Positions 33,474 through 34,930 of a DNA stretch of 64,000 nucleotides are shown here, in pieces (within the stretch, counting starts at the first letter, position 1; each line of letters begins with the position of its first letter). The position numbers and the translations under genes are program-made. The notes under the pieces were generated by a model, which saw nothing but the letters and a program-made list of their open reading frames with translations, had not been told where the DNA came from and ran no database searches. The stretch covers positions 365,860-429,859 of the forward strand of contig NZ_FOFD01000004.1 in the NCBI RefSeq assembly GCF_900110865.1, written 5' to 3'. This stretch comes from Natrinema salaciae. GTDB taxonomy: Archaea > Halobacteriota > Halobacteria > Halobacteriales > Natrialbaceae.

Positions 33474-34133
33474 ATGAGCACTCCGCTTGCAAATATTTGG
33501 GGGAATACGGTGATACGAGGAGTGATTGCAATAAGTGCGCTAGTTATATTCACACATTTCTTTACAGGTATGTCCTCTGATGGGGTATTTCCTCTAGTAA
33601 TATTACTTTCTGGAGTGGTACTGAACGATGTTCTCAGCGAATCGTTTGAGTTTCCGAACGGGACAGAATGGGTCGTCTTTGGCACGTCGCTTCTCATCAC
33701 CGGTGCATTTTTCGGACTAGTCGAATCTGTACTGATCGGTGTTATATTTTCGATTATTGGAACGTGGTTTTTGTTCGATGGTCTGACAATAATCGGGTAC
33801 AAGCCATCCCCTGCAACGGAGGAATACGTAGTGACTCGAGAAAATGGAGAATTGCTACTCCGCTTGCAGATATTGAATACCGTATATCAGAATCTCAAGG
33901 AAAGTGAGGAGCCACAAACGGTCGAGTCCCTCGCCTCTAAATCGGATCTCACGGAATCACGCGTTCGGGATGCTCTAACGTACCTCGAACGTAGAAATCG
34001 CGTAAAACGGATTGAGAATACATATCAAGCGATTCTACCGAAGTGGGGTCGACTGACACCGATTGTGTTATTCATTTCGTGGGTAGTACAACGAGTCCGT
34101 TTACCGTTCCAGCGCGCTCGTTCGATAGATTGA
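33474..34133 (+). CDS. A+T-rich membrane protein with cytoplasmic winged-helix domain
   Basis: A 219-residue protein unlike its neighbours in base composition (many A/T-ending codons such as ATA, TTA, AGA). About four transmembrane helices occupy residues 13-105. A soluble domain follows, with LLLRLQILNTVYQNLKESEE, TVESLASKSDLTESRVRDAL (helix-turn-helix) and YLERRNRVKRIENTYQAI. A final hydrophobic LTPIVLFISWVV may re-enter the membrane. A membrane-tethered winged helix suggests signal-dependent DNA binding. Composition suggests recent transfer, e.g. from a virus or plasmid. Not a family I can name. Confidence 0.7.
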   Translation: MSTPLANIWGNTVIRGVIAISALVIFTHFFTGMSSDGVFPLVILLSGVVLNDVLSESFEFPNGTEWVVFGTSLLITGAFFGLVESVLIGVIFSIIGTWFLFDGLTIIGYKPSPATEEYVVTRENGELLLRLQILNTVYQNLKESEEPQTVESLASKSDLTESRVRDALTYLERRNRVKRIENTYQAILPKWGRLTPIVLFISWVVQRVRLPFQRARSID

Positions 34134-34280: not shown

Positions 34281-34529
34281 TCACACGGAGTCGCCGTCGG
34301 TTCGCTCGAGCAGGTCGGCGGGAACCGGACAGCCGCAAGGCGTGGCCTTGTGCGTGAGGGGGCCGTAGCTGACGACCAGCGCGATCGCGGTGTCACAGCG
34401 CGGGCAGCGAAGCGGCTCTCGGCCGCCCGGCGAGTTGCTGGCGGGGATGACGTCGGCGTCGACGACTATCTCTCCGAGCCCTTCGGGTTCGTCGTCGGCG
34501 TCGGCGGTGTCGTCGGCCTCGTCGCTCAT
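34281..34529 (-). CDS. small zinc-ribbon-like protein
   Basis: An 82-residue acidic protein with two Cys pairs, LRCPRCDTAIAL and TPCGCPVP, spaced as in a one-domain zinc ribbon. A 40-residue acidic head precedes it (MSDEADDTADADDEPEG). Start ATG 34529 gives the typical MSDE head; the 7 residues upstream are unrelated. Small CPxCG-type proteins of haloarchaea are common and mostly of unknown role. It lies 110 bp upstream of, and divergent from, the hairpin-rich locus at 34665. Confidence 0.7.
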   Translation of the reverse strand: MSDEADDTADADDEPEGLGEIVVDADVIPASNSPGGREPLRCPRCDTAIALVVSYGPLTHKATPCGCPVPADLLERTDGDSV

Positions 34530-34636
34530 CGGCCCCTCCCGCGGCAGCACTCCCGCGATCGGTGCCGGTTCTGCGGATAGCGCCGCCGCTCGAGCGGCGC
34601 AGTCGATCGGGTGCGATACGGTCGTCGTGCGAGACG

Positions 34637-34643
34637 TTTATAT
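34637..34643 (+). promoter_or_regulatory. strong TATA element of the hairpin-rich locus
   Basis: tttatat preceded by a purine-rich BRE-like gcgagacg. Its centre (34640) predicts transcription from about 34665, exactly where the first stem (and an ATG) begins. Confidence 0.65.
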
Positions 34644-34664
34644 CTCGGTAGGAGTAAGCGAATC

Positions 34665-34790
34665 ATGGCTTGCAAACGGCTCGTGTTTGGAAGCCAGTCT
34701 CGGGTGTCATCAGCACCCGGGGCGTTTGCGTACGCCCCCGCTGGAGCTGACTTCCAGCGCGAAATGCGCGAAAGAATTACTTATAGCTAA
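34665..34790 (+). ncRNA. candidate structured small RNA (alternatively a 41-codon leaderless ORF)
   Basis: Five consecutive stems follow the predicted start. P1: GGCTT/AAGCC plus CAAAC/GTTTG with one G-G mismatch (34667-34677 with 34685-34695, 7-nt loop). P2: CGGGTG/CACCCG (34701-34719). P3: GGGCGT/ACGCCC (34720-34737). P4: CGCTGGA/TCCAGCG (34739-34759). P5: a short CGCG hairpin (34758-34770). Stems abut with almost no spacer, unlike chance. An ATG at 34665 opens 41 codons ending at 34790, but only about half end in G/C and they include TCA, GGA, AGA, ATT and TAT, atypical here. That favours RNA over protein. The 3' end is a guess; no oligo-T is seen. Confidence 0.5.
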
Positions 34791-34930
34791 TGGAACACGA
34801 CGGACGAGTACCGCGGTTTCTCGCCTGTATCGACGAACGCGCGCGACGTCGACACCGCCGTCCGAACCGCCGAATCGGCGAATAAAGGGTGAACCGTCGC
34901 TCGAGTCGCCGCGGCGACGGCCCGCGAGCG

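Follow-up and report, generated by a model that had tools for sequence, protein, structure and literature searches.

Introduction

Haloarchaeal mRNAs are mostly leaderless, and to our knowledge almost no natural translation switches have been found in haloarchaea. In archaea generally, few cis-regulatory RNAs have been described, even counting predictions (PMC7247131). The fluoride riboswitch of Thermococcus kodakarensis was, as of 2021, the only experimentally determined natural archaeal riboswitch (PMC8241225). Haloarchaeal 5'-UTRs need no Shine-Dalgarno sequence (PMC3986360). Translation coupling at ATGA overlaps has been measured in Haloferax (PMC6728339), and work on the zinc-finger micro-proteins of Haloferax volcanii mentions no leader for them (PMC11241148).

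The locus discussed here lies in Natrinema salaciae, in a stretch of 64,000 nucleotides that was analysed as a whole and is called the window below. A reading made from the sequence alone had proposed a promoter-driven small RNA of abutting hairpins on the plus strand. Comparison of the locus with its relatives indicates that the hairpins make up the 5' leader of a small zinc-finger operon read from the opposite strand and do not form a free-standing small RNA. The expectation of an RNA new to known classes held up, since the element is to all appearance a genuinely new structured haloarchaeal RNA with no Rfam family: the covariance models of Rfam 15, run against the window and 20 diverse loci, found only tRNAs elsewhere and left the leader unmatched.

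Promoter and Architecture of the Leader

The structured leader, of about 90 nt, occupies 34667–34755 on the minus strand, as defined by covariance model matches and covariation. A BRE/TATA promoter, ATTAGC-TATAAG, lies at 34780–34791 on the same strand, recognizable by its conserved spacing and information. The first T of the TATA stands exactly 30 nt before GGAAG in 115 of the 132 copies that have a TATA; the information content is 0.7–1.5 bit at the TATA and about 0.2 bit in the 24-nt spacer, and a BRE-like block lies upstream. The minus-strand TATA that the sequence-only reading had suspected at about 34770–34785 is this TATAAG (34785–34780), the one with conserved promoter geometry. The transcript is predicted to start at or near GGAAG (34755), 25–30 nt after the TATA. 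Imperfect palindromes, e.g., CCAATTGCTACGTAGCAATTGG, are found between the TATA and the leader in four copies from other families (L324, L317, L333, L305), which suggests an additional transcriptional operator there. On plasmids of Halocatena marina (L336, 2146–3129) and Halococcus dombrowskii (L335, 2087–3084), the promoter is divergent from a toxin-antitoxin-like pair of winged-HTH and PIN-domain genes.

Read 5' to 3' on the minus strand, the leader consists of arm a (GGAAGYCACG...), hairpin P3, hairpin P2, arm c (GAGACGUGGCUUCC), a variable hairpin, and arm d (AAGCC-AUG). In the window, arm a is GGAAGUCAGCUC (34744–34755), and its pairing with c is seen in own-partner duplex energies. P3 (GGGGCGU...ACGCCCC, 34719–34738) shows compensatory changes in all four of its modelled pairs, and P2 (GGGUG-loop-CACCC, 34702–34718) is 100% paired, with covariation in its outer pairs. 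Arm c, GAGACUGGCUUCC (34689–34701), is the putative switch segment, which can pair with either a or d according to register counts, lineage-matched pairs, and duplex energies. Arm d (34664–34671) is the start-codon region, complementary to c as judged from own-partner duplex energies. The general forms are GGGGC...GCCCC with a highly conserved GAAA for P3 and GGGUG-N6/7-CACCC for P2. The outer pairs of P2 change in distant relatives (GACGUG/CACGUC, GGCGUG/CACGCC, CGAGUG/CACUCG), and the GUG/CAC pairs at its apex are invariant in 69 diverse leaders. This apex and the GAAA of P3 would be the first place to seek a candidate binding site.

Two alignments were used: A4, a MAFFT alignment of 66 leaders, and A6, in which 69 leaders including distant relatives were aligned to the model. 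For a:c, P3, and P2 together, A4 contains 36 cells changed on both sides, compared with 9.9 in shuffles. The corresponding figures in A6 are 166 and 52.8, spread over 16 of 19 pairs and inflated by alignment to the structure; in a sliding control on A6, pairing falls from 92.6% to 31–52%. Duplexes of a with its own c are far more stable than those with shuffled partners (z −19.4, or −14.0 with one copy per c type). Many copies are paralogous, so that both covariation and copy counts overstate the number of independent events. Compensatory changes, which the sequence-only reading had named as the check on its stems, are thus seen in both alignments, and on this comparative evidence helices a:c, P3, and P2 are conserved by compensatory change. 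The predicted mRNA carries in its 5' leader a conserved, structured, aptamer-like domain, as expected of a riboswitch.

A Competing Helix at the Start Codon

Arms a and d are alike in sequence and compete for arm c, so that helices a:c and c:d are mutually exclusive. Helix a:c frees the start codon, whereas c:d pairs the start-codon region and often the AUG itself. Arm c and the part of arm d immediately before the AUG are matched by lineage: GGCUU/AAGCC, GGUCUU/AGACC, GGUUU/AAACC, GGGUU/AACCC, and GCUU/AAGC. Own-partner c:d duplexes are more stable than shuffled ones (z −12.2, or −7.8 with each c type represented once). On A4, c:d pairing is 81.0% versus 80.4% in shuffles, with 5 cells changed on both sides versus 1.7. 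The support for c:d is weaker than that for a:c, and the helix is poor in some copies (−3.5 kcal/mol in L188); nevertheless, the comparison of lineages shows it to be conserved by compensatory change. By comparison, the leader therefore also possesses a mutually exclusive helix over the initiation region, of the kind that serves riboswitches as an expression platform. The two folds are predicted to be nearly isoenergetic, with a median difference of −1.1 kcal/mol, i.e., about 1, over 77 copies.

Coupled Reading Frames and Their Products

The leader opens directly into ORF1 (34526–34666, minus strand), a basic small ORF of 46 aa beginning MIRLLLPRYKRLARRPYRTR..., which has a counterpart in 116 nonredundant copies. 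These counterparts range from 28 to 156 codons with a median of 39, and in Natrialbaceae they begin with the consensus M[IF]xx[IL]LP[GR][YH]K[RH][PL]AR...; the ATG is missing in a few copies (L022, L068, L069). Diversity at the three codon positions of ORF1 is 0.334/0.278/0.338. A third-position excess was not found, which means that constraint on the RNA shapes this N-terminus no less than constraint on the protein. A second ORF of zinc-finger type starts within 30 nt of the ORF1 stop in 102 of the 116 copies and overlaps that stop in 100 of the 102, 71 of them by ATGA, which is also the overlap at the window locus.

In the window, the second ORF (ORF2, 34281–34529, minus strand) encodes an acidic protein of 82 aa with conserved cysteines, CPRC...PCGC. 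Residues C42, C45, P64, C65, G66, and C67 are invariant in 43 homologues. As a very small protein with a pair of CPxCG-type knuckles, the product of ORF2 can be classed as a candidate C(P)XCG micro-protein with putative zinc binding. Its AlphaFold core has a pLDDT above 90 at about residues 41–70, and a fold search gave no significant match. The first and second ORFs tested against Pfam, NCBIfam, PHROG, and PADLOC belonged to no family, none reaching the Pfam cut-off, and no homologue of the zinc finger was found in the phages searched. In the record of Natrinema sp. SYSU A 869, the micro-protein adjoining the leader is left unannotated.

On the minus strand, a short ORF for an acidic zinc-finger protein follows nearly all of the copies examined first, and relatives of the leader stand before many small, mostly putative zinc-binding proteins. 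The Natrialbaceae leaders precede CPxC...PCGC micro-proteins, with CERC...CVDC proteins in Halovivax and Natrialba. SWIM-type zinc fingers begin directly at the leader's AUG in Haladaptatus, while Halocatena and Halobacteriales YIM A00010 have CPVCGRPVR...H..GCP proteins downstream. Other families contribute CQVCG proteins as well as families without cysteine pairs (MSTRKAATQEP..). In three copies from Halostagnicola (L188, L190, L200), the zinc-finger ORF has an N-terminal extension; that of L188 is weakly similar to HalOD1 (PF18545, below cut-off) and is perhaps a fused output domain. In L310 and L318, the leader and a CxxC protein are followed by a protein of about 300 aa that by eye is of the RAMP/Csc2 type, unconfirmed by Pfam or PADLOC. 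The neighbour of L315 is an HmaC/DUF499 ATPase (PADLOC E 2e-46), which puts this copy in defence-island surroundings. The left neighbour in the window, a 219-aa protein (33474–34133, plus strand), has by eye membrane segments and a winged-helix-like C-terminus.

Distribution

Searching 60 relatives at the DNA level showed the element to be dispersed and in multiple copies in 26 of 29 same-genus genomes, the N. salaciae genome included, and in one other genus. With the covariance model R1, matches were obtained in 79 of 125 family genomes; the N. salaciae genome carries 14 copies, and the highest count per genome is 31. The repeated unit comprises the promoter, the leader, ORF1, and the zinc finger. 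In a class sample, 127 of 391 genomes had covariance model matches, and among the matches listed all fell in the window's order, to which the matches in a phylum sample of 393 genomes were also confined. Relatives of the leader occur in several other haloarchaeal families. The E-values are rough because the models were calibrated briefly, and inspection covered only part of the single weak matches (E 1e-4 to 1e-5) found in distant families; two R2 matches near contig ends (L313, L322), where no leader stood at the positions inspected, were left out. No exact core matches were found in viral contigs. Close same-strand copies occur at G001:C67 50788/51282, G009:C1 151142/151636, and G113:C1 1570917/1572637/1574160, spaced about 0.5 kb or 1.5–1.7 kb apart, as if the whole unit had been tandemly duplicated.

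Proposed Mechanism and Alternative Explanations

The element is probably the minus-strand 5' leader of a bicistronic mRNA that acts in cis as a bistable, two-state translation switch. Production of the RNA, its switching, the direction of ON and OFF, and the presence of an effector are what we infer from comparative results on the strand, the promoter geometry, the helices, the near-equal predicted energies, the coupled ORFs, and the multi-copy haloarchaeal distribution. Transcription would begin at or near GGAAG. In the ON state, a would pair with c and close a junction carrying P3 and P2, leaving AAGCC-AUG free, so that ribosomes could start ORF1 and then re-start on the zinc finger. In the OFF state, c would pair with d, with the start codon inside, and translation of both ORFs would drop. 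One start codon would control both ORFs because the start of the zinc finger overlaps the stop of ORF1. Masking of the AUG would be a sensible control point because haloarchaeal leaders need no Shine-Dalgarno sequence. An effector could set the balance by stabilising one fold over the other; it might be an ion or metabolite, a protein (for example, the zinc-finger product), or temperature or salt.

As to the effector, a protein is a real though tentative possibility: the zinc-finger product or a relative might bind the P2/P3 core of the same leader and repress its own mRNA, in the manner of ribosomal-protein leaders. This would suit the many downstream genes whose products are small CxxC proteins differing in fold (CPxCG..PCGC, SWIM, CERC..CVDC, CQVCG), as well as the constancy of the P2 apex and the P3 GAAA. 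However, the downstream proteins are mutually non-homologous, and some lack cysteine pairs, yet they share the same leader core. With non-homologous products behind a constant core, a shared trans factor or a small ligand would fit better than the operon's own product. The leader might represent a new natural class of haloarchaeal riboswitch that masks the AUG, possibly a sensor of zinc or of another ion or metabolite, with a regulon of up to about 30 zinc-finger operons per genome; this is a somewhat doubtful suggestion at present.

A sensor of temperature, salt, or Mg2+ that works without a ligand, or a kinetic co-transcriptional switch, is rather unlikely. The small energy difference between the folds would favour it, as would the molar salt that haloarchaeal cells carry, but an invariant GUG/CAC apex and a conserved GAAA exceed what a melting hairpin needs. 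Less probable still is a static fold whose task is to present the start codon to ribosomes or to stabilise the mRNA, with c:d as a by-product of the resemblance between arm a and the start region. The much stronger support for a:c than for c:d speaks for such a structure. Against it, d tracks c across lineages even with one copy per c type (z −7.8), and the U of the AUG forms 90 G-U pairs versus no A-C pairs.

The last count comes from a strand test in which G-U and A-C combinations in the helices were compared at fixed register over 168 nonredundant copies, and it bears equally on the plus-strand small RNA of the sequence-only reading. At positions 6–9 of helix a:c, the minus reading gives 110 G-U versus 5 A-C, and the 90-to-0 result at the AUG is of the same sign. 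The hairpin in ORF1 (CGAGAU-AUAAAC-GUCUCG, 34630–34647, minus strand), which is supported by covariation, has C-G 42, U-G 40, and U-A 13 versus C-A 4 at one pair and A-U 53/G-C 47 at the second. Permissive counting was spoiled by helix-end artefacts, and interior-only counting gave answers that differed by helix: 68 G-U versus 24 A-C for P3 on the minus strand, with the contrary result of 18 A-C versus 3 G-U in the inner d hairpin. It was the fixed register that decided a:c, the AUG pairing, and the ORF1 hairpin. Together with the side of the promoter and its 30-nt spacing, the minus ATG at the end of the element, and the 100 of 102 ORF overlaps, this asymmetry assigns the element to the minus strand and contradicts a promoter-driven plus-strand RNA.

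A plus-strand RNA, or transcription of both strands, is accordingly very improbable in our view, even though several observations favour it. The hairpins at 34660–34790 fold on the plus strand with −55.8 kcal/mol (z −4.2, with none of 200 shuffles equal or better), and the minus strand also beats its shuffles with a lesser z of −2.5. The energetics of the d hairpin favour the plus strand, and TTTAT is present there in 96 of 168 copies. The fold itself is thus real and better than expected by chance; what did not stand were its strand, its transcript boundaries, and its stand-alone status. In the minus-strand leader, the stems formerly named P1–P4 are to be read as the c:d hairpin, P2, P3, and a portion of helix a:c. 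The TTTATAT at 34637–34643 exists, but it represents codons 9–11 of the minus-strand ORF1, with the ORF1 hairpin as its source, and not a promoter. Halovivax (CTTTTT) and other families have lost this motif but kept the leader. Likewise, the 41-codon plus-strand ORF from 34665 is present, but its ATG is merely the complement of the minus start codon: CATG is palindromic, which places a plus ATG opposite the minus start in 156 of 168 copies. A stand-alone small RNA would be transcribed from a plus-strand promoter of its own and would not run into a translated ORF, which is not what was found. The more remote copies, in Haladaptatus and other families, lack the plus TATA and end exactly at a minus ATG that opens real genes. 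A free or dual-function RNA consequently gives way to an mRNA leader. Two further candidates were dropped: a plus-strand ncRNA whose TATA lies within a palindromic operator, as the ORFs of distant relatives start at the end of the element on the other strand, and a bidirectional promoter at the palindrome, as this palindrome forms a hairpin within ORF1 and bears no resemblance to a TATA in Halovivax. A mobile, MITE-like element with hairpins acting at the DNA level, which the dispersed, multi-copy, and often plasmid-borne copies might recall, is a very improbable explanation, as the 14 copies of one genome are about 70–84% identical with homology bounded by the operon, ending at the promoter and at the end of the zinc finger, and the G-U pairs and coupled ORFs indicate RNA.

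Comparison with Known Systems

A search of the PMC open-access literature gave no description of this leader class. The two-state leader favoured here appears to belong to a large group of haloarchaeal mRNA leaders that had not been described before and that resembles a natural switch of translation. Such a class bears on how archaeal leaders could control translation. Its many natural variants show matched three-way covariation and occur in genetically tractable relatives, and it suggests a role for numerous zinc-finger micro-proteins that are so far uncharacterised.

The ORF2 product resembles the C(P)XCG zinc-finger micro-proteins of Haloferax volcanii (PMC11241148, PMC6562870) in being a very small CPxCG protein of which there are many per genome, but it differs in its CPxC...PCGC pattern with an acidic tail and in its position behind a leader and ORF1. 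As in haloarchaeal termination-reinitiation pairs (PMC6728339), an ATGA stop/start overlap couples two ORFs, whereas here the coupling follows a first start codon that is proposed to be switchable. Archaeal ribosomal-protein leaders (S15 and eL15 of Halobacteria; PMC7247131) are likewise cis-regulatory RNAs found by covariation before small protein genes. The present leader stands apart from that group in its non-ribosomal downstream genes, which encode small zinc-finger and uncharacterised proteins, and in its many paralogous copies per genome. With translational riboswitches it has in common a structured 5' leader in which a junction domain is combined with a competing helix that covers the initiation region. 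It differs from them in that the AUG is masked instead of a Shine-Dalgarno sequence, in having no Rfam match, and in that small zinc-finger or uncharacterised genes lie downstream and not enzymes or transporters. The leader thus seems to work like a translational riboswitch or a protein-binding leader, and membership among the riboswitches proper would require a ligand.
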